Shown piece by piece: positions 52,470 through 63,921 of a stretch of DNA of 64,000 bases. The notes below the pieces were generated by a model. The model saw only the letters and a program-made list of their open reading frames with translations, made no database searches and had not been told where the DNA came from. Position numbers and translations under genes: made by a program. The number at the start of each line of letters is the position of its first letter. The stretch's first letter is position 1. The stretch is from Tunturibacter psychrotolerans (GTDB lineage: Bacteria; Acidobacteriota; Terriglobia; Terriglobales; Acidobacteriaceae), in NCBI RefSeq assembly GCF_040359615.1, contig NZ_CP132942.1, forward strand, positions 2,604,001 to 2,668,000, given 5' to 3'.

Positions 52470-52723
52470 GAGGACAAAGGTAAATTAGTTCTGCGACCTT
52501 TGCAGTCACCTATTCAGTTCCCGCCAAAATCTCAAAAAATGTCAGCCTTTCGTAAAATTTCCACAGAGCAACGTATTTTCTCCATGAATACAGCACAAAT
52601 TATTCCTCTGTTCACACGACTTTGTGAGCATGGTTCAAAGAGCAAAGGAAGAAAGTTGGAGAGGCCAGAAGGCCTTCCCGCTCTCTTGTTGTCCTTGTGC
52701 CTTTCATCTTTCTGCGAGGTTCC

Positions 52724-54562
52724 ATGACGAAGCAACTACGAGCGACCATGGCGGCGATATTGGTTATCAGTTCAATATCTCTCCAGGCGCAAACGAGCAC
52801 GGCAACACAGAAGACCGGTACGGCGACCGCTCACAAAAAGGCGCCGAAAGAGAGCCCGGTGGAGCGCCAAATCCGCGAACTGCGCGAGCAGATGCAGAAC
52901 CAGCAGGCCCAGATCGACGCTCTCAAACAGCAGAACGCCGATAAGGACGCGAAGCTTGCTGCCGCTCAGCAGGCGGCTCAGACTGCTGAAGCTGCTGCTG
53001 CCAGTGCATCGGCTAAGGCGGATAGCCTCAGCTCGTCCGTCTCGACCAACGCTGATGCCGTCTCCAGTCTGAACAGCACTGTGACCGACCTCAAGACCAC
53101 CAACGTCGGCCTCGCCCAGACCATCAGCGATACAAAGAAGCAGCTTACCGACGAACTCGAGTCGCCTCTCGCCATCCACTACAAAGGCGTCACCCTCACA
53201 CCAGTTGGCTTCTTCGCGGGTGAATCTGTTTACCGGCAGCGCGCGATGAACGCCGACGTCAATACGCCGTTCAACGCGACCCCTTACGACGGCGCAGGCC
53301 AGGCCCACACCAGCGAGTTCAACCTCTCTGGTCGCCAGAGCAGAATCGGCGCACTCTTCCAGGCCAACCCCGGACCGTACCACTTCGCAGGCTACGTCGA
53401 AGCTGACTTCCTCGGCGCCGGCGCCAGCAGCAACGAAAATCAAAGCAACAGCTACGTTCTTCGCCAGCGTCAGATCTTCGGTCAGTTCGGAACCAACAGC
53501 GGGTTCACTGTAACCGGCGGTCAGATGTGGTCACTCGTCACCGAGACCAAGAAGAGCACAGACAACCGCACCGAGAACCTGCCCGCTGTCATCGACGCTC
53601 AGTACAACGTCGGTTTTAGCTGGGAGCGTCAGCCCGGTGTAAGGTTCCAGCAGAAGATCGGTGGATTCACCGCTGCGGCCTCACTCGAGGAAGCCGAAAT
53701 CATCTACTCGGCAACCAATGCGAACGCCAACTTCTTCATCGGCAACGCAGGTGCGGGCGGTGGTCTCTATAACCTCACTGCCAACTACTCCAACAACATC
53801 GCCCCAGACGTGATCGTAAAGACTACCTACGATATGGGAGCTGCCCACTTCGAGGCCGGCGGCCTGGTTCGCTTTTTCCGCGACCGGTACTATCCCAACC
53901 AGACCCTCACTGTTCCATCCGCTGTGGGTGGCACCAACAACACCAAGGTCGGCGGCGGCTTCTTCGCCAACGCCCGGACGCCTATCACTCACTATGCTGA
54001 CTTTGGCCTCCACTTCCTTGGCGGCACTGGCGTAGGCCGTTATGGCACCTCGACCTTGCCCGACACTACCGTGCATCCCGATGGAACGCTCGCGCCCATC
54101 AAGAACTACCAGTTCCTGGGCTCGCTCGAACTTCACCCGCAGAAGAAGCTCGATCTCGATATGTACTACGGTACGGAATACGCGCAGCGCACCACCTACC
54201 TCAGCACCGTTGGTGCAGATGCCGGCAAAATCGTCGGTTATGCTCCAATCACCAGTGCCAACACTGGTTGCGGTATCGAGACTCTGCCTACGACCCCAAC
54301 CTCCGGTCTTGGCAGCATCGGTGTTGCCGGAAACCCGCCTTACAGCCCCGGTACTCCTGCGAATTGCTTGGGTGCAACCCGGGCAGTCTCCGAGCTCACC
54401 GGCGAGTTCGTCTATCGCTTCTACAACAACCCCAAATTCGGCCGTCTGCAGTATGCCATGCAGTACAGCTACCTGCAGCGGGTCGGCTGGGCCGGTGTTG
54501 GTGGCGCGCCGAAGGCCAACAACAACATGGTCTTCACCAGCCTCCGTTACTACCTCCCGTAG
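52724..54562 (+). CDS. Outer-membrane porin-like protein with an N-terminal coiled coil
   Basis: A 612-residue exported protein. The signal peptide (~1-22) is followed by a Lys/Ala-rich stretch and a coiled coil at about 47-145 (VERQIRELREQMQNQQAQIDALKQQ), then an Ala/Ser-rich connector. The remaining ~450 residues are rich in alternating aromatic/polar strands, as in a beta-barrel (GRQSRIGALFQANPGPYHFAGYVEADFLG, VYRFYNN, final FTSLRYYLP). It resembles DcaP-like porins, in which the coiled coil forms periplasmic trimer stems. ATG 52724 follows GCGAGG. It ends with a strong terminator and is a stand-alone gene divergent from the GH20 operon. Confidence 0.85.
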   Translation: MTKQLRATMAAILVISSISLQAQTSTATQKTGTATAHKKAPKESPVERQIRELREQMQNQQAQIDALKQQNADKDAKLAAAQQAAQTAEAAAASASAKADSLSSSVSTNADAVSSLNSTVTDLKTTNVGLAQTISDTKKQLTDELESPLAIHYKGVTLTPVGFFAGESVYRQRAMNADVNTPFNATPYDGAGQAHTSEFNLSGRQSRIGALFQANPGPYHFAGYVEADFLGAGASSNENQSNSYVLRQRQIFGQFGTNSGFTVTGGQMWSLVTETKKSTDNRTENLPAVIDAQYNVGFSWERQPGVRFQQKIGGFTAAASLEEAEIIYSATNANANFFIGNAGAGGGLYNLTANYSNNIAPDVIVKTTYDMGAAHFEAGGLVRFFRDRYYPNQTLTVPSAVGGTNNTKVGGGFFANARTPITHYADFGLHFLGGTGVGRYGTSTLPDTTVHPDGTLAPIKNYQFLGSLELHPQKKLDLDMYYGTEYAQRTTYLSTVGADAGKIVGYAPITSANTGCGIETLPTTPTSGLGSIGVAGNPPYSPGTPANCLGATRAVSELTGEFVYRFYNNPKFGRLQYAMQYSYLQRVGWAGVGGAPKANNNMVFTSLRYYLP

Positions 54563-54706: not shown

Positions 54707-56881
54707 TCACTTGGTCGCTAACGTCGGCTGAAATCCGGACACACCGAATTGCCAAAATAGAAAAGCCATTTCATCCGCCCGCTCTTCGTCCCGTTGCGTC
54801 TTGGTCGAACCCATTCCGTGTCCCGCGTCATAGTCGACGCGCAGTAAAATTGGCTTCCCGCTACTAGTAGAAGCCTGCAAGCGCGCCGTCATCTTTGCTG
54901 CCTGCCACGGCGCAACGCGTGGGTCGTTGGCTCCAGTAGTCAGCAGTATCGCTGGATACGCCGTGTCTGGTTTTACATGTTGATATGCATCCATCGCATA
55001 CAGCGCCTTAAAGCCATCTGGCTCCTTGACCGTTCCAAACTCCGGAATATTTGCTGGCCCACTGGCCATCAGTTCGGAGCGAAGCGAATCGGAGTCCCCG
55101 ACTCGAATCAAAGCCGCGCCAAATAAATCTGGACGCTGCGTAATGGCGCCTCCAATTGTGATTCCGCCGGCGCTGGTGCCTTCGCCGGCCAGGTGCGCCG
55201 GAGAGCTATATTTGTGCTCGATCAGGTATTCAGCCGCCGCCACCATGTCATCAATCGTGTGCTGCTTGGTCAACTTCTGCCCCGCCAGATGCCAATCCTC
55301 GCCATATTCGCCGCCGCCGCGGACGTGAGCCACCGCGGATATGCCTCCGCGTTCAAAAAATGCCAGCAGTATAGGACTGAACTGCGGATCGAGTGTGATC
55401 CCATAGGCCCCATAGCCGTCCAGCCAGGTCGGATGCGATCCATCAAGCACTAGTCCACGCTTGTGAATAATCGACAGCGGCACCATCGTTCCGTCCGCGC
55501 TCTTTACCTTCACCTCTTCTGACTCGACCTGCGAGTAGTCGACCGGCGACTGAGCCACGAGCCCCGTGTCTGTCAGCTTCTGTGACCGCGAATCCAGCGC
55601 ATACCACAGTGGCGACTTCGTCCACGACGTCAGTTCCAGCCAGGCCCCGGCTTCCGTTGGATTCGTGACCAGCGTCTGAATCGCTCCATCAAACGGCAGC
55701 TTCACCGGCTCAATAGCCCCGTCGCGATAAGACAACCGCCGCAGTCGTCCGATCCCTCCGTCCAGGTCCTGCACATAAAGCGCATCGCTCGCAGCTGCAA
55801 TACCGACAACAACCACATTGCTCGGCGCAACAATCACCGTCGCATGATCGAGGTCTGGCTTGTCGAGAGCGGTTCGTAAAACCTTAAAGCGAGACGCCTG
55901 ATTATGAGACACCAGGAAGAGACTGTCCTCACGCACGTCAAACCCTGTAATCGCATCCGATTGATCGGCAACCTTCTTCCAGATCATCTTTGCATTCGCG
56001 TCCGCCTGGAATGGAGCAACATACAAATCCTTCTCGTGCTTCACCCCGTGAAATATCACTCCGACAAGATACTTGGGGGCGCCTGGAGAAAATGCGACGA
56101 GAGGGAAGTCGTCCTCAGTCACCTTTACGTCAGCAGACACCTGGTATCCGAAGACGGCATCTTCTTTGTCCGGGTTGGCGCCCAGAACATGATGATAGGT
56201 ACGTAGTTTCTGGTACTTCGCTGTCGGTGCTGAATCCGCCGTCAATTTCTGGGTTCGAGTATAGAAAAATGAATGATCAGGCAGCCAATTGGGCTGCCCA
56301 AATTGAGCGCGATCGATCGTGTCAGGAAGCACTTTCCCGCTGGCACTTTCGATCACATGCAGTATGCTCTCTTCCGATCCGCCAACCGAGATGCCATAGG
56401 CCACATACTTCCCGTCAAGCGACGGCTGAAAGTAGTCAATCGAAAAATGCTTTCCATCTGCCTGGGTCAACTTTTCAGGATCTACGAGCAGACGCTCCGG
56501 TGCATTCAATTTATCCCGCACATAAAGCTTCCGGTTATCAGATCCGGGCTGGGTCTTGAAGTAAAAATATCGTCCACCCCACACCTGCAGCGCCGAGACA
56601 ACATCGCCCGCGTTGTCCAGCGCCTTGATACGATCCAGCAACGGGCCTCGCCCCGGTATGCTTGCCAGCACACTGCGCGTGTAATCGTTCTGAGCTTTCA
56701 TCCAGGCCACGACGTCGGGAGCAGTCGTATCCTCAAGCCATCGGTAGGGATCGGCCACTTTCGTGCCGAAGTAGTCGTCTGTCACGGCTCGCACTGGCGT
56801 GTTAGGCAGTTTGGATTGGGCAATGGCCAAATGGGTGCTGACCATGGAGAAAACCAGCAGAAACCTTATGAGACCGCGCAT
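54707..56881 (-). CDS. Secreted prolyl oligopeptidase-family peptidase
   Basis: A 724-residue serine peptidase (S9A) cutting short peptides after proline or related residues. The signal peptide is about 1-21 (ends LAIAQ). The N-terminal seven-bladed propeller spans ~75-445, starting after YRWLEDTTAPDVVAWMKAQN. The alpha/beta-hydrolase domain carries Ser570 in GEGTSAGG, Asp653 in TGANDPRV and His688 in DAGHGMG. The active serine lies in GTSAGG instead of the common GGSNGG, still with the required spacing. Export suggests peptide scavenging. It is divergent from uxaC. Confidence 0.92.
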   Translation of the reverse strand: MRGLIRFLLVFSMVSTHLAIAQSKLPNTPVRAVTDDYFGTKVADPYRWLEDTTAPDVVAWMKAQNDYTRSVLASIPGRGPLLDRIKALDNAGDVVSALQVWGGRYFYFKTQPGSDNRKLYVRDKLNAPERLLVDPEKLTQADGKHFSIDYFQPSLDGKYVAYGISVGGSEESILHVIESASGKVLPDTIDRAQFGQPNWLPDHSFFYTRTQKLTADSAPTAKYQKLRTYHHVLGANPDKEDAVFGYQVSADVKVTEDDFPLVAFSPGAPKYLVGVIFHGVKHEKDLYVAPFQADANAKMIWKKVADQSDAITGFDVREDSLFLVSHNQASRFKVLRTALDKPDLDHATVIVAPSNVVVVGIAAASDALYVQDLDGGIGRLRRLSYRDGAIEPVKLPFDGAIQTLVTNPTEAGAWLELTSWTKSPLWYALDSRSQKLTDTGLVAQSPVDYSQVESEEVKVKSADGTMVPLSIIHKRGLVLDGSHPTWLDGYGAYGITLDPQFSPILLAFFERGGISAVAHVRGGGEYGEDWHLAGQKLTKQHTIDDMVAAAEYLIEHKYSSPAHLAGEGTSAGGITIGGAITQRPDLFGAALIRVGDSDSLRSELMASGPANIPEFGTVKEPDGFKALYAMDAYQHVKPDTAYPAILLTTGANDPRVAPWQAAKMTARLQASTSSGKPILLRVDYDAGHGMGSTKTQRDEERADEMAFLFWQFGVSGFQPTLATK

Positions 56882-57140: not shown

Positions 57141-58544
57141 ATGATTCTCGATCCAAAACGGCTCTTTCCTGCGGAGAGCAAAGCACGGTCAATCGCCGCA
57201 AAACTCTACGAAACAGTCCGGAATCTGCCGATCATCTCGCCACACGGGCACACCGACCCGCGCTGGTTTGCCGAAAACGAGCCCTTTGCCAATCCTACCG
57301 CCCTCCTCATTCAGCCTGATCACTACATCTTTCGAATGCTCTACTCCCAGGGAATCTCTCTGGAGTCGCTTGGCATCTCTCCGCTCCACGGCACAGCCGC
57401 TTCAGTCGACCCGAAAGAAGTCTGGCGCATCTTTGCAAAAAACTACTATCTCTTCCGCGGCACCCCCACACGTCTATGGCTCGACTACTCCTTAGAAAAT
57501 CAGTTCGGCCTGACCAAACGTCTCAGCTCTGAGAATGCGGACGAATACTACGAAGTCATCGCGAAAAAACTACAGACCGCCGAGTTCCGGCCCCGTTCGC
57601 TCTACGAGCAGTTCAACATCGAGGTCCTCTCCACCACCGACTCCCCCCTCGACACCCTCGAATACCACAAAGCCACTCGCGAGTCGGGTTGGCGAGGTCG
57701 CATTTTGCCGACCTTCCGGCCAGACTCGCTGGTCGACGCCGACTACATCGGTTTCCTCGACAACATCCAGAAGCTAGGCCAGATTACCGGCGAAGACATC
57801 GGCACCTGGAAGGGCTACCTCAATGCTCTGCGCAACCGCCGTGCCTTCTTCAAGTCCATGGGAGCGACTGCAACCGATCAGGGCCACCCAACGGCCCTGA
57901 CCGCCGATCTCGACCCAAACGCTGCAGCCTCTCTCTACACTCGAATTCTCTCGGGTCGCTCCGTACCAGAAGAGCAGGAGCTCTTCCGCGCTCAAATGCT
58001 TACCGAGATGGCCGGCATGAGCGTAGAAGACGGCCTCACGATGCAGCTTCACCCCGGTTCTGTCCGCAACCACAACCGGCAGTTGTACGAGAGGTTCGGA
58101 CGCGACAAGGGAGCCGACATACCCTCGCCAACCGAGTATGTCCGCGCCCTTCAGCCTCTGCTGAATCGTTACGGAAACGACCAGCGGTTGACCTTCATCC
58201 TCTTCACCCTCGACGAGACCACCTTCTCCCGCGAACTGGCTCCTCTCGCCGGCCACTATCCCGCGCTCAAACTTGGTCCTCCCTGGTGGTTCCACGACTC
58301 CCCAGAGGGCATGATGCGCTTCCGCGAGCAGGCCACCGAGACGGCCGGCTTCTACAACACGGTGGGCTTCAACGACGACACCCGCGCTCTCCTCTCCATC
58401 CCATCCCGCCACGACGTAGCACGCCGCATCGACTGCGCCTTCCTCGCCCGCCTGGTCTCAGAACATCGCCTCGATGAAGAGGAAGCCTTCGAAGTAATCC
58501 AGGACCTCACCGTCAACCTCGTCAGGAAGGCCTACAAGCTGTGA
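57141..58544 (+). CDS. uxaC: Glucuronate (uronate) isomerase
   Basis: Isomerises D-glucuronate to D-fructuronate and D-galacturonate to D-tagaturonate, the entry step of hexuronate use. The 467-residue length is typical of this amidohydrolase-like enzyme. The metal-site motif is LPIISPHGHTDPRWFAEN. EVLSTTDSPLDTLEYH, GLTMQLHPGSVRNHN and the late FNDDTRALLSIPSRHDVARR are also characteristic. The ATG follows GAGGTGATGAAGG, a very strong ribosome binding site. It heads a plus-strand series with a LarA-like gene, gntK and an SDR gene. The usual partners uxuA, uxuB, uxaA and uxaB are not seen. Confidence 0.95.
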   Translation: MILDPKRLFPAESKARSIAAKLYETVRNLPIISPHGHTDPRWFAENEPFANPTALLIQPDHYIFRMLYSQGISLESLGISPLHGTAASVDPKEVWRIFAKNYYLFRGTPTRLWLDYSLENQFGLTKRLSSENADEYYEVIAKKLQTAEFRPRSLYEQFNIEVLSTTDSPLDTLEYHKATRESGWRGRILPTFRPDSLVDADYIGFLDNIQKLGQITGEDIGTWKGYLNALRNRRAFFKSMGATATDQGHPTALTADLDPNAAASLYTRILSGRSVPEEQELFRAQMLTEMAGMSVEDGLTMQLHPGSVRNHNRQLYERFGRDKGADIPSPTEYVRALQPLLNRYGNDQRLTFILFTLDETTFSRELAPLAGHYPALKLGPPWWFHDSPEGMMRFREQATETAGFYNTVGFNDDTRALLSIPSRHDVARRIDCAFLARLVSEHRLDEEEAFEVIQDLTVNLVRKAYKL

Positions 58545-58897
58545 TGCGTCCATGAATTATCAGACAAAGAGGGAGGATTACGACCTATCGGCGCACTGAG
58601 CAACCGTGGCCAACGTTCAAAAAAAATAATTGAAAATCGTGGCGTATTTTTCTCGATCCAAGTCAACGCGGTTCCTGATCCACGTTAGCCACACATTTCA
58701 CCACGTTCTCACCACCAAAACACCATCGCAAACTCACCCATTTTCGGCCGCCCCCCCCTCAAAAACACAGCAAAATGGATGAAGAGCGGTACCACACACC
58801 ACCAGATTTTTTTTGCGCAAGCCACAATTTTTTCCAACTGGCCATCGCCTCCACTCAACGCACCCCACCACGAGTACCGGGAGTAAGATCAAAACCC
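58545..58897. other. 353-bp intergenic region between uxaC and the LarA-like gene
   Basis: No gene is supported here; an in-frame upward extension of the LarA-like frame (41 codons) lacks conserved features. The region contains low-complexity CACCA-rich stretches and a C-run (around 58751-58758). A promoter for the LarA-like gene could lie here, so uxaC and the following genes may not share one transcript. Confidence 0.5.
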
Positions 58898-60172
58898 ATG
58901 AGCCTCTTTTTCGCTGCCGGAAGTCCAACAACAGAGATGTCGCCCACAGAAGTGCGATCAAACCTGTTCCAGGCTCTGGACAAACTAGGTCAGCGCAATA
59001 AGGTCGTTGCGGTTCCTCCTGATTTCACGCGAATGCACTCTCAAAGCGGCGTCCTTACCGAACTAGTCTGGCAATACTACGGAGACAAACTCGTCGACAT
59101 CCTCCCCGCACTGGGGACTCACAAGCCCATGACCGATCAGGAAATTGCGACGATGTACGGCGCAACTCCGCGAACTCTCTTCCGCAACCATGACTGGCGA
59201 AAGGACGTCGTTACGCTGGGAGAAGTTCCAGGCGAATTCATGTACGAAGTGAGCGAAGGAAAGCTCGACTACACCTGGCCAGCCCAAGTGAACAAATTGC
59301 TACGAGACGGTGGCCACGATCTCATCCTCTCTATAGGCCAGGTCGTTCCCCATGAAGTCGTCGGCATGGCCAACTACAATAAAAACATCTTCATAGGCAC
59401 AGGCGGTGCTATCGGAATTCATCGCAGCCACTTCCTCGGCGCGGTGTACGGTATGGAACGCATGATGGGCCGTGCCGATACACCTGTTCGTCGTGTACTC
59501 AACTACGCTAGCGAACACTTTGCTGGCGGGATGCCGATCGTCTATGTGCAGACGGTCGTAGGCAAGAACGTCGATGGAAAGCTCGTCATTCGCGGTCTAT
59601 ACATCGGTGACGATTCAGAATGTTTCGAACTCGCCGCAGATCTCAGCCTCAAGGTCAACTTCAAGATGATGGATCGGGAGATCAAGAAGGCGGTTGTTTT
59701 TCTCGATCCCCTTGAGTTCAAAAGCACGTGGCTGGGGAACAAGAGCATCTATCGCACTCGCATGGCCCTCGCAGATCACGCCGAACTAATCGTCCTGGCT
59801 CCGGGGGTCCACGAATTCGGGGAAGATTCCACCATTGATGCGCTGATTAGGAAGTACGGCTATTGTGGAACCCCCCGGACCCTTGAAGCTGCCAAAGAGG
59901 ATCCTCAGCTGGCTGGGAACCTGAGCGCGGCGGCCCACCTCATCCATGGTTCCAGCGAAGGCCGTTTCACGATCCGATATTGCCCGGGACATTTGACCCG
60001 CGAGGAGATCGAGGGCGTTCACTTCGAGTATGGAGACCTGACGGAGATGACGTCAAAGTACAACCCCGCAACGCTCGCAGACGGTTGGAACACAGTAGAT
60101 GGGGAAGAGATCTTCTATATCTCTAATCCTGGTCTTGGGCTCTGGGCTTATCAGGGTCGCTTCCAGAGCTAG
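58898..60172 (+). CDS. LarA-family nickel-pincer (NPN) racemase/epimerase, probable sugar-acid epimerase
   Basis: A 424-residue member of the lactate racemase superfamily (DUF2088). LarA carries a nickel-pincer nucleotide on a lysine and inverts alpha-hydroxy acids by hydride transfer. Key residues are in place: DFTRMH (Arg45), ALGTHKPMTDQE (His75), VVPHEVVGM (His152), NK (Lys162) and IHRSH (His178). The His152-Lys162-His178 spacing (10 and 16) equals that of LarA His174-Lys184-His200. C2 inversion of an aldonate, such as mannonate to gluconate, is suggested by the neighbours uxaC and gntK; lactate is less likely. ATG 58898 is preferred. larB lies 2.2 kb downstream on the other strand. Confidence 0.9.
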   Translation: MSLFFAAGSPTTEMSPTEVRSNLFQALDKLGQRNKVVAVPPDFTRMHSQSGVLTELVWQYYGDKLVDILPALGTHKPMTDQEIATMYGATPRTLFRNHDWRKDVVTLGEVPGEFMYEVSEGKLDYTWPAQVNKLLRDGGHDLILSIGQVVPHEVVGMANYNKNIFIGTGGAIGIHRSHFLGAVYGMERMMGRADTPVRRVLNYASEHFAGGMPIVYVQTVVGKNVDGKLVIRGLYIGDDSECFELAADLSLKVNFKMMDREIKKAVVFLDPLEFKSTWLGNKSIYRTRMALADHAELIVLAPGVHEFGEDSTIDALIRKYGYCGTPRTLEAAKEDPQLAGNLSAAAHLIHGSSEGRFTIRYCPGHLTREEIEGVHFEYGDLTEMTSKYNPATLADGWNTVDGEEIFYISNPGLGLWAYQGRFQS

Positions 60173-60220
60173 ATTCTGCATGGTTGCCGTTAATGATGAT
60201 GATCGAGAGGATGCTGTTGG

Positions 60221-60721
60221 ATGATTGTTGTGTTGATGGGTGTAAGCGGATCTGGCAAGACTACTATCGGGACGCTGCTGGCTAAGCGTGCGGGCGCCGT
60301 GTTTGCCGATGGAGACGATTATCATCCTGTGGCGAACAAGCAGAAGATGGCAGCAGGCCATCCGCTCAACGATGAGGATCGTCAGCCGTGGCTCGAGGTG
60401 CTGAATCAGCTCTTGCGAGAGTGGTTTGCAGAAGGGAAGAGCGGTGTTCTGGCCTGCTCTGCATTGAAGGCGAGTTATCGGGTTACGCTGCAAGCGGGTA
60501 TGCCGAACGGTGCGGTAAGCTTTGTTGTGCTTGAGGCGTCAAAGGAGATGCTTGCGGCTCGTCTGGCAGAGCGAAAACATGAGTTCATGAGTGCGAAGCT
60601 CTTGGAGAGTCAGCTTGCGACCCTCGAGATACCGAGCGATGCTGTTCGGGTTGTGAATGATCGGTCCCCAGATGAGGTCGTCAGTCAGATTCTTACGCAG
60701 GTCTTGTCGGGAAAGAACTGA
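60221..60721 (+). CDS. gntK: Gluconokinase
   Basis: Phosphorylates D-gluconate to 6-phosphogluconate. The 166-residue length is typical of the GntK/IdnK P-loop type. Walker A is GVSGSGKT (7-14), then FADGDDYHPVANKQKMAAGHPLNDEDRQPWL, the gluconate-binding block, ACSALKASYR and FMSAKLLESQLATLE. It starts 48 bp after the LarA-like gene and 41 bp before the SDR gene, so these three are probably one transcript. Its presence directly after a putative C2 epimerase indicates that gluconate is a product of the local pathway. Confidence 0.95.
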   Translation: MIVVLMGVSGSGKTTIGTLLAKRAGAVFADGDDYHPVANKQKMAAGHPLNDEDRQPWLEVLNQLLREWFAEGKSGVLACSALKASYRVTLQAGMPNGAVSFVVLEASKEMLAARLAERKHEFMSAKLLESQLATLEIPSDAVRVVNDRSPDEVVSQILTQVLSGKN

Positions 60722-60762
60722 GTTTTTTGAGAATAATTTGAGGTAAGAAGAGGCAATTTTCT

Positions 60763-61539
60763 ATGGGGCATCCGTTGTTTGATTTGAGTGGCAAGTCGGT
60801 GGTGGTGGTGGGGGGGACGTCGGGTATCGGGTTGGCGATGGCGGTCGGTCTGGCGGAGGCAGGCGCGGATGTGGTGGCGACCTCGCGGCGGATGGAGCAG
60901 GTGGATGAGGCGGCGAAGGCGATTGAGGCGACGGGGCGGCGGTCGCTGCGGCTGACCTCGGATGTGGCAGATCGGCAGAGTCTGCAGGCTCTGCTGGATG
61001 GGACAGTGAAGGCGTTCGGCAAGGTGGATATCCTGGTCAACTGCGCGGGCAGGATCAAGAGGGAGCCGACGCTGACGGTCTCGGAGGAGACCTGGGACGG
61101 CATCATGGATACGAATGTGACGGGGACGCTTCGGGCATGTCAGATCTTCGGCAGGCACATGCTGGAGCGCGGCTATGGGCGCATCGTCAACATCGCTTCG
61201 CTGAATACCTTCGTTAGCCTGAGAGAGGTGACGGCATACGCGGCGAGCAAGGCTGCGGTTGGGGCGTTGACCAAGTCTCTGGCGGTGGAGTGGAGCGCGC
61301 AGGGTGTGACCGTGAACGCGATCGCTCCAGGCGTCTTTCGGACCGCGTTGAATCAAAAGCTGCTGGACGAGAGCGAACGGGGTAAAGAGTTGTTAATGCG
61401 CACCCCCATGGGGCGCTTCGGAAAGACTGTTGAATTGGTGGGTGCGGCGATCTTTCTTGCGAGTGATGCCTCGGCGTTTATCACAGGAGAAATTCTTGTC
61501 GTCGATGGCGGTTTTCTTGCCAGCGGAGTGAACCAGTAG
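60763..61539 (+). CDS. SDR oxidoreductase (gluconate 5-dehydrogenase/KduD-like)
   Basis: A 258-residue classical short-chain dehydrogenase. The cofactor motif is VVGGTSGIGLA, the structural NCAGR follows at 93-97, and the catalytic residues are Ser146, Tyr159 and Lys163 (YAASK). The C-terminal FITGEILVVDGGFLASGVNQ is typical. Similarity in overall pattern is to gluconate 5-dehydrogenase and 2-deoxy-gluconate/KduD enzymes acting on sugar acids. In this setting it could be a fructuronate/mannonate oxidoreductase that replaces UxuB, but the substrate is inferred from neighbours only. It is the last gene before a repeat and terminator. Confidence 0.9.
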   Translation: MGHPLFDLSGKSVVVVGGTSGIGLAMAVGLAEAGADVVATSRRMEQVDEAAKAIEATGRRSLRLTSDVADRQSLQALLDGTVKAFGKVDILVNCAGRIKREPTLTVSEETWDGIMDTNVTGTLRACQIFGRHMLERGYGRIVNIASLNTFVSLREVTAYAASKAAVGALTKSLAVEWSAQGVTVNAIAPGVFRTALNQKLLDESERGKELLMRTPMGRFGKTVELVGAAIFLASDASAFITGEILVVDGGFLASGVNQ

Positions 61540-62332: not shown

Positions 62333-63094
62333 TCAGCTACGACGGACAGACGCACGAGCGATTAATACGGCAGTGTAGGCCGCTCCGAAGCCGTTGTCTA
62401 TATTTACTACGGTAACGTTGGGGGAGCAGGAGTTGAGCATTCCCAAAAGTGCAGCGGCGCCGTCGAAGCTGGCTCCGTAACCGACTGAGGTGGGGACGGC
62501 GATGACGGGGACGCCGACCAATCCGCCTACGACCGACGGGAGGGCGCCTTCCATTCCGGCACAGACGATGACGACGTCTGCGTGGACGAGTTGGTCGCGG
62601 ACGGAGAGGAGTCGGTGGAGTCCGGCTACGCCTACGTCGTAGAGGCGGGTGACCTTGGCGTTGAAGAGTTCGGCGGTGACGGCAGCCTCTTCGGCGGTCG
62701 GCTGGTCGCTGGTTCCGGCGCTGAGGATGGCGATGTGGCCCTTTGGATCTTCGGGAGGAGATTGTTTGAGGGTGATGGCGCGGGCTGAGGGGTGGTGGGC
62801 GGCTGCTGGGAAGGATGCGAGGACGAGGGCGGCGGTTTCGGCGTCGGCGCGGGTGGCGAGGACGTCGGTTCCGGCGGCGGCCATGCGGGTGAAGATGTCC
62901 GTGGTTTGCTGTGGGGATTTTCCCTGGGCGTAGATGACCTCGGGGAGACCGATGCGGAGGGTGCGGTGGTGGTCGATGCGGGCGTGGCCGATGTCCTCGT
63001 AGGGCATGTCGGCGAGGCGCTGGGTGGCGGCGGTGGGGGTGATGGTTCCGGACTGGACGGCGGCGAGGAGTTCAAGGAGGGAGGCTTTGTTCAT
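62333..63094 (-). CDS. larB: Nickel-pincer cofactor biosynthesis protein LarB
   Basis: LarB carboxylates and hydrolyses nicotinic acid adenine dinucleotide to a pyridinium dicarboxylate, the first step to the nickel-pincer nucleotide used by LarA enzymes. The start at 63094 (MNKASLLELLAAVQSG) gives 253 residues. The AIR-carboxylase-like C-terminal domain shows ILSAGTSDQPTAEEAAVTAE, LYDVGVAGLHRLL, VVGGLVGVPVIAVPTSVGYG and VNIDNGFGAAYTA. larC and larE, needed for sulfur and nickel insertion, are not in the window. The nearness of a LarA-like gene indicates that they belong to the same enzyme system. Confidence 0.94.
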   Translation of the reverse strand: MNKASLLELLAAVQSGTITPTAATQRLADMPYEDIGHARIDHHRTLRIGLPEVIYAQGKSPQQTTDIFTRMAAAGTDVLATRADAETAALVLASFPAAAHHPSARAITLKQSPPEDPKGHIAILSAGTSDQPTAEEAAVTAELFNAKVTRLYDVGVAGLHRLLSVRDQLVHADVVIVCAGMEGALPSVVGGLVGVPVIAVPTSVGYGASFDGAAALLGMLNSCSPNVTVVNIDNGFGAAYTAVLIARASVRRS

Positions 63095-63171
63095 GATTGT
63101 TGCTTGAGACCTTCGTGATGTCGGTTGTGACGGCAATTCGTCATGTTAGTCGTGAGAGGGGCAATCTGACG

Positions 63172-63921
63172 CTACGCTGAAATGCCGCCGTCGGATTTTA
63201 TAAGTTGGCCGTTGATCCATGAGCCTTCAGGTGAGAGTAAGAATGCAATCAGATTCGCGGCGTCTGCAGCGGTCCCTAAACGGCCAGTTGGTTGTCGCTG
63301 CGTCAAGGAGATGCGAGTCTGGTCATCCATCCAACCCGTATCAATTGGTCCTGGGTTCACTGCATTTGACGTGATGTTCAGATGGGCAAGTTCGCGTGCT
63401 GCTGCCAACACGATTCGATCGAGCGCACCTTTGCTCGCGCCGTAGGGCAAGTTGCCGACAGTATCGTCACTCGTCAGAGCCACAATGCGGCCGCCGCTTT
63501 CTGGCGTTTGAACTGCTAGTTGTTGTATCAATTGCCAGCTTGCTCGCACGTTGACGGCGAAGTGTCGTTCGAAACTTTCAAGAGTTGTATCCATGATGCT
63601 CGATCCCACCGATTCGCAATGAGAGAGCACAAGAGCTGAGACAGGTCCTAGTTCGGCCGTGACTTTTCCGAAAAGCCCGGAAGCAGAATGTGATTGCTCC
63701 AAGTCCGAAGCGATGAATACCACGCGGGAACCTGTTGACAGGAGTTCCACCTTCAAGTTCTCCAAGTCCTCGGGATGGGCTCCCCAAGGCATACGCTCGT
63801 CGCAGGGCGCCCAGTAGGTAAGCGCGAGATCCCATCCGCCAGTCGCAAGTTTCCTGGCGACGGCAGCTCCGATACTCGCGGTGCGGCTCACGCCTGAGAT
63901 CAAAGCTACCGGTCTGACCAT
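63172..63921 (-). CDS. SDR-family oxidoreductase
   Basis: A 249-residue short-chain dehydrogenase. The N-terminal ALISGVSRTASIGAAVARKLA is a variant glycine motif. LVLSHCESVG replaces the usual NNAG stretch. The catalytic Tyr160 and Lys164 lie in YGASKGALDR, followed by NAVNPGPIDTGWM and a typical INGQLIKSDGG end. A classical 3-oxoacyl-ACP reductase-like fold is clear, but the substrate is unknown. It is 77 bp upstream of larB on the same strand. Confidence 0.9.
   Translation of the reverse strand: MVRPVALISGVSRTASIGAAVARKLATGGWDLALTYWAPCDERMPWGAHPEDLENLKVELLSTGSRVVFIASDLEQSHSASGLFGKVTAELGPVSALVLSHCESVGSSIMDTTLESFERHFAVNVRASWQLIQQLAVQTPESGGRIVALTSDDTVGNLPYGASKGALDRIVLAAARELAHLNITSNAVNPGPIDTGWMDDQTRISLTQRQPTGRLGTAADAANLIAFLLSPEGSWINGQLIKSDGGISA

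Follow-up and report, generated by a model that had tools for sequence, protein, structure and literature searches.

By which route might glucuronate, a sugar acid of plants, enter central metabolism in the soil acidobacterium Tunturibacter psychrotolerans? The question is raised by four consecutive genes on the plus strand of a 64,000-nt stretch of its genome, referred to here as the window (contig NZ_CP132942.1, positions 2604001-2668000; genome 5.64 Mb, 99% complete). They code for the uronate isomerase UxaC, a homologue of the nickel-pincer enzyme LarA that falls into group 18 of its family (LarA-18), the gluconokinase GntK, and a short-chain dehydrogenase/reductase (SDR). This gene order, reported in an earlier note on the window, is present as described, and curated models back all four families, the SDR broadly only. 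We consider it likely, with a probability of about 75%, that these genes form an operon for the catabolism of hexuronates, of the gntE type proposed for Thermotoga.

In such an operon, UxaC would isomerise glucuronate to fructuronate, and the SDR, as the counterpart of Thermotoga uxaD, would reduce fructuronate to D-mannonate. LarA-18 would then invert C2 of D-mannonate to give D-gluconate via transient hydride transfer to its nickel-pincer nucleotide (NPN) cofactor, and GntK would phosphorylate gluconate to 6-phosphogluconate. Gnd, encoded elsewhere, would convert the latter to ribulose 5-phosphate in the pentose phosphate pathway. The cofactor would be made by LarB, LarC, and LarE, which are encoded close by on the opposite strand, and the tagaturonate epimerase UxaE, encoded elsewhere in the genome, would add galacturonate. 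All of these reactions are predicted from sequence, above all the substrates of LarA-18 and the SDR. What was observed directly is the set of genes and their families, the conserved active-site residues, the genes for the cofactor, the conservation of the neighbourhood, and the lack of a uxuA match.

The series glucuronate, fructuronate, mannonate, gluconate, 6-phosphogluconate had been put forward in the earlier note as a possible new pathway. As a series of steps it is still the best reading, with which neighbouring genes in several phyla agree. Its newness falls because a 2012 proposal for Thermotoga already contained this route and three other LarA homologues of the GntE type have been shown to be active as epimerases. 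For Thermotoga maritima, conversion of mannonate to gluconate by gntE, followed by gluconokinase and 6-phosphogluconate dehydrogenase, is credited to Rodionova 2012 (PMC6978723, PMC3750489, PMC7583248, PMC7953866), and homologues of gntE in Lactobacillus, Acidobacterium, and Terriglobus were already noted in that year (PMC6978723). The Thermotoga genes are given as gnd-uxaRED-gntEK, that is, gnd-uxaR-uxaE-uxaD-gntE-gntK (PMC3750489), with uxaD described as fructuronate reductase (PMC7953866). In 2020, D-gluconate 2-epimerase activity was reported in vitro for LarAH19/GntE1 (group 19) and LarAH20/GntE2 (group 20), while for group 18 a hexonate epimerase is hypothesised only (PMC7583248). LarAH15 from an oomycete is described as a third active GntE (PMC11770544).

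The locus resembles the Thermotoga operon in joining a LarA-family GntE, a gluconokinase, and a predicted fructuronate reductase. The combination that marks the Thermotoga type, uxaC together with a gntE homologue and gntK, and gnd in the genome, was found. The two differ in that the LarA homologue belongs to group 18 and not to group 20, that uxaC is part of the operon, and that uxaE and gnd are found at other places in the genome. T. maritima also differs in having a kdgA-kdgK-uxuB-uxuA operon (PMC3750489). What is added here is the genomic context, a better-supported candidate function for group-18 LarA, and a probably wider reach of the Thermotoga-type route. A LarA group that is still called a putative hexonate epimerase is thereby given a testable substrate.

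LarA-18 and its partners in the proposed operon

The first gene, uxaC (57141-58544, plus strand), codes for a uronate isomerase of 467 amino acids (NF002794, 573.7 bits, cut-off 387; PF02614, 285 bits). It is predicted to convert glucuronate to fructuronate and possibly also galacturonate to tagaturonate.

The LarA-like open reading frame (ORF), listed as 58775-60172, scores 653.6 bits against NF052594 (cut-off 500) and 44 bits against PF09861. NF052594 (NPN_18_hexonate), whose cut-off is passed, is the curated NCBIfam model for the group-18 'putative hexonate epimerase'. The start codon is more likely the ATG at 58898 than the listed start at 58775, since the model leaves ORF residues 1-52 unmatched, residue 42 is a methionine, and the lengths of the homologues agree. 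The latter were taken from the 80 named loci that match this LarA best (more exist); all 80 were read as intact proteins of 417-438 amino acids with starts picked near the point equivalent to 58898. The gene was therefore annotated at 58898-60172 (plus strand), and its product of 424 amino acids is a predicted D-mannonate/D-gluconate 2-epimerase.

The NPN lysine and the nickel-binding and catalytic histidines claimed for this protein are in place: the NPN-binding and catalytic residues D42, R45, H75, H152, K162, H178, and K282 (424-residue numbering) are each conserved in 60 of 60 sequences. The LarA fold is matched, and the closest fold match is Thermotoga GntE (GntE2, 4nar). GntE proteins carry the signature E, V, A, H at LarA positions 175, 176, 358, and 359. 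Of these, the first two are clearly matched, by the invariant residues E153 and V154 that follow the catalytic histidine. A346 and H347 are invariant as well, and their assignment to the last two signature positions rests on our reading of the alignment; the pairwise alignment pairs GntE2 N348 (W358) with a serine 2-3 residues before A-H. LarA-18 thus shares with GntE2 and GntE1 the fold, the NPN ligands, the catalytic residues, and the glutamate after the catalytic histidine. It differs from them in belonging to a separate group, whose activity is hypothesised or 'putative', and is 28.6% identical to the group-20 LarA of Thermotoga over 343 aligned residues. The nearest named records are from Edaphobacter lichenicola strains, in which LarA is 87-93% identical in the best segment.

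The third gene, gntK (60221-60721, plus strand), codes for a gluconokinase of the GntK/IdnK type (166 amino acids). It passes the subfamily model TIGR01313 (161 bits, cut-off 113.75) and scores under both PRK gluconokinase equivalog cut-offs.

The fourth gene (60763-61539, plus strand) codes for an SDR of 258 amino acids that resembles KduD and gluconate 5-dehydrogenase. We predict it to be the fructuronate reductase, an assignment that, judged by the protein itself, is weak. Its top NCBIfam scores are for KduD (253.9 and 244.8 bits) and gluconate 5-dehydrogenase (243.1 bits), and it may be argued that the protein is one of these enzymes and that a route to mannonate is missing or runs via another gene. 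However, these scores are all below the respective cut-offs; among the 25 families shown, only one broad subfamily is passed (PRK07231, 226.9 bits, cut-off 215). The D-mannonate oxidoreductase SDR model also has its cut-off (281) missed, but the operon SDR is its best candidate genome-wide, ranking first of 40 matches (218 bits vs. 166 for the next). Furthermore, the clusters in other phyla hold an SDR that scores over this cut-off (4/4 tested: loci L131, L135, L136, and L163), and the Thermotoga operon likewise has uxaD, described as fructuronate reductase (PMC3750489, PMC7953866). We thus consider a KduD-like or gluconate 5-dehydrogenase function of the SDR unlikely. Identification by PDB match alone was dropped: the fourth match is 1vl8, 'gluconate 5-dehydrogenase', and chains of KduD, gluconate 5-dehydrogenase, and other SDRs score alike.

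The canonical route and conservation in Acidobacteriota

The canonical isomerase (Ashwell) pathway consists of uxaC-uxuB-uxuA-kdgK-kdgA. The genome shares uxaC, kdgA, and a kdgK-like gene with this pathway. It differs in having no match genome-wide for UxuA (PF03786; a search for the enolase-type mannonate dehydratase ManD was not made) and none for UxuB of the mannitol-dehydrogenase type (PF08125). A complete uxuA/uxuB/kdgK set elsewhere in the genome was accordingly not found. The earlier note had recognised none of the three in the window. For uxuA and the PF08125-type uxuB this extends to the whole genome, while for kdgK it does not, as a kdgK-like gene is probably present beside kdgA. The latter scores over its subfamily cut-off at ~3.48 Mb and adjoins a PfkB-type kinase, for which models of 2-keto-3-deoxygluconate (KDG) kinase are among the best matches, below their cut-offs. 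Absence of kdgK and kdgA was thus rejected. Both genes lie 0.8 Mb from the operon, beside amidohydrolase-like and 3-hydroxyaspartate-aldolase-like genes. With uxuA lacking a match, but with kdgA and the kdgK-like gene present, a bypass of mannonate dehydratase is no more than plausible.

As to the fate of 6-phosphogluconate, one full-length 6-phosphogluconate dehydrogenase gene (gnd) is encoded elsewhere in the genome (451.6 bits). No Edd scores over the cut-off genome-wide; one match reaches 240 bits vs. a cut-off of 708 and may be another dehydratase of the family. The gene for UxaE is found at ~4.18 Mb (PF16257, 159.3 bits, cut-off 27.1) and shares 70% identity with a relative's copy that is part of the operon. 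It adjoins a gene for a 718-residue protein (L184:4959-9283) which, judged from sequence, resembles a secreted right-handed beta-helix protein and is possibly a pectin enzyme.

Conservation was analysed in 396 Acidobacteriota genomes, 22 of them from the same genus, including the genome studied here. LarA-18 scores over its cut-off in 45, uxaC was found in 68, a UxuA-family protein in 43, and uxaE in 52 genomes; LarA-18 and uxaC occur together in 43. When 30 genomes with a more distant LarA (E < 1e-30, same model) are added to those with LarA-18 under the term GntE-like LarA, such a protein is encoded in 62 of the 68 uxaC genomes, compared to 24 with a UxuA-family protein (LarA only, 40; both, 22; UxuA only, 2; neither, 4). 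Because Fisher tests on co-occurrence ignore relatedness, a count by genus was made in addition: LarA and uxaC are found in one genome in 21 of 27 uxaC genera, vs. 31 LarA genera of 210. Within the genus, LarA-18 and uxaC are each present in 22/22 genomes, uxaE in 20/22, and a UxuA-family protein in 7/22. Conserved co-occurrence of uxaC and larA is thus clearly present. Since LarA-18 and uxaC are encoded in all genomes of the genus and, according to their coordinates, lie ~1.5 kb apart or less in 18 of the 22, the four-gene set is not a chance arrangement. Exclusion of uxuA by LarA-18 was considered and rejected, as shown by the 22 uxaC genomes that carry both protein types.

As in Thermotoga, uxaE can be part of the operon: it is directly beside larA in 13 of the 22 genus genomes, elsewhere in 7 (this genome included), and was not found in 2. 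The operon in the window is a form without uxaE, which would most simply be explained by loss of this gene from the operon. The figure of 62/68 suggests that uronate isomerase in Acidobacteriota, which are common soil bacteria, is usually accompanied by a nickel-dependent step. Hexuronate use in this phylum would then be linked to the supply of nickel and, instead of KDG cleavage, to the pentose phosphate pathway.

Loci in other phyla and the order of steps

The 80 named loci include records from Bacteroidota, Ignavibacteria, Calditrichia, and Planctomycetota at ~64-68% identity. Their neighbouring genes were identified by tblastn, and all counts are limited to the gene families queried. Either uxaC or uxaE is present in 45/80. 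The gene gnd is within the locus in 35/80 and is the direct neighbour of LarA-18 in 26/80, compared to 0/80 for kdgA. The Gnd proteins of L131 and L136 score far over the gnd equivalog cut-off (2/2 tested). Being next to LarA-18, gnd thus points to a step from mannonate to 6-phosphogluconate for group 18. This neighbourhood is the strongest independent argument for a product line ending at 6-phosphogluconate, and it fits either order of epimerisation and phosphorylation. In a metagenome-assembled genome of the Ignavibacteriaceae (L135:1005-11742), uxaC, a uxaE relative, kdgA, an SDR, uxuA, LarA-18, and gnd form a single run, which by its gene content represents both routes from mannonate side by side.

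A number of observations weigh against a Thermotoga-type route. No activity measurement for a group-18 LarA was found in the open-licence literature, the group of LarAH15 is not stated in its description (PMC11770544), and the Km of GntE for mannonate is reported as high, 9-120 mM (PMC7583248, PMC11770544). Edaphobacter paludis is described as not growing on glucuronate and only weakly on gluconate (PMC11354219), and four other descriptions of new Acidobacteriota give gluconate, galacturonate, and glucuronate among the substrates that are not assimilated (PMC13362970); the genomes concerned are outside our comparison. The presence of the kdgA and kdgK-like genes belongs here, as does the operon SDR, which scores below the D-mannonate oxidoreductase cut-off and higher against KduD. 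LarA does not always replace uxuA, because a UxuA-family protein is encoded as well in 16 of the 45 LarA-18 genomes (> 325 bits in 9) and uxuA is in the same cluster as LarA-18 in 4/80 named loci. Finally, 14/80 loci have none of the tested partners; 9 of these are on stretches < 12 kb and 5 on stretches of 12-19 kb.

Alternatively, LarA-18 might act on another hexonate or an aldarate in a side branch, while mannonate would be converted to KDG via an enolase-type dehydratase and then processed by the products of the kdgK-like gene and kdgA, both of which are present. For GntE1, another uronic or aldaric acid has been suggested as the preferred substrate (PMC7583248), and for group 18 itself no assay was found in the open-licence literature. 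However, the kdgK-like gene and kdgA are 0.8 Mb away in the company of amidohydrolase-like and aldolase-like genes, and among the families queried in the 80 named loci, gnd directly adjoins LarA-18 in 26 and kdgA in none. We regard a side branch as very unlikely.

The kinases lead to a second question, namely whether phosphorylation precedes epimerisation. A PfkB kinase was found in 24/80 named loci and GntK in 21/80, never both in one. The PfkB-family kinase (~359 amino acids; e.g., L136:7863-8942) is directly upstream of LarA in 20 of its 24 loci, some of which hold a separate kdgK-like gene besides. As it never shares a locus with GntK, the PfkB protein beside LarA may be an as yet unrecognised kinase for gluconate or mannonate, from a family in which this would not be expected. 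A kinase might thus make 6-phospho-D-mannonate, which LarA-18 would epimerise to 6-phosphogluconate. Extracts of Lactobacillus suebicus have exactly these two activities in the galacturonate-phosphoketolase route, reported without assigned genes (PMC6978723). Like the route proposed here, it leads from mannonate to 6-phosphogluconate without mannonate dehydratase; it differs in that phosphorylation comes first (PMC6978723). The high Km of the assayed GntEs for free mannonate would be in line with this order, and the kinase, LarA, and Gnd neighbours in several phyla fit it equally well. Against it, GntE1, GntE2, and LarAH15 are reported to turn over free mannonate (PMC7583248, PMC11770544), E. 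coli GntK is reported not to use mannonate (Cohen 1950, cited in PMC6978723), and the open-licence literature yielded no study in which a LarA was tested with a phosphorylated substrate. Phosphorylation as the first step is, in our estimate, decidedly unlikely. The same low probability applies to group-18 LarA being a 6-phosphomannonate 2-epimerase, that is, the missing gene of a phosphorylate-first route known only from L. suebicus extracts. If this were true, mannonate would be phosphorylated by PfkB in Bacteroidota and relatives and by GntK in Acidobacteriota, and the SDR-PfkB-LarA-Gnd cluster would represent a phylum-crossing hexuronate route to ribulose 5-phosphate. We continue to favour epimerisation of free mannonate followed by phosphorylation of gluconate.

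Cofactor genes and other neighbours

The gene larB, coding for the first enzyme of NPN cofactor synthesis, is located 0.8 kb downstream of the operon (62333-63136, minus strand; NF033503, 289.9 bits, cut-off 175). Beyond larB and a second SDR gene (63172-63921, minus strand), and past the end of the window, are genes for an aldo-keto reductase, larC, and larE. The latter two are within 4 kb of the window end, and all three lar genes score over their cut-offs. Since they sit next door on the opposite strand, a cofactor gene set adjoins the operon. The three genes are beside larA in 14 of the 21 other genus genomes. The second SDR and the aldo-keto reductase, which has a twin-arginine translocation signal (L037:1939-2955), lie inside the larE-larC-larB cluster. 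Aldo-keto reductase homologues accompany the lar genes in 11 relative loci; a homologue of the second SDR was seen in none of the relative loci examined.

Upstream of uxaC, an outer-membrane protein which is porin-like as judged from sequence is encoded at 52697-54562 (plus strand); a Pfam search with this protein returned no match. In the window, a prolyl oligopeptidase gene of opposite orientation (54707-56881) separates it from uxaC. Of the 20 other loci of the genus in which uxaC was found, 15 have a homologue of this protein ~1.3 kb or less from the uxaC gene, and the protein is a possible uptake partner of the operon. A promoter scan found 2 sites vs. 2.5 expected, and 10 terminator-like sites were detected vs. 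5.5 ± 2.3 expected.

More distant group-18 LarA proteins (~45% identical) are encoded in another genus of the family (L042:6217-7425, L092:6206-7378, and L094:7171-8379), where they are directly associated with larE and larB. In L092, they are joined by uxaE, an SDR, a major facilitator superfamily transporter, a GntR-type regulator, and uxaC. One relative has a 317-residue protein without a Pfam or NCBIfam match between uxaC and larA (L059:8295-9248). A record titled Rhodanobacteraceae (L124) encodes proteins that are 67% (UxaC), 76% (LarA), and 48% (porin) identical to those of the window and is possibly a mislabelled or mis-binned contig.

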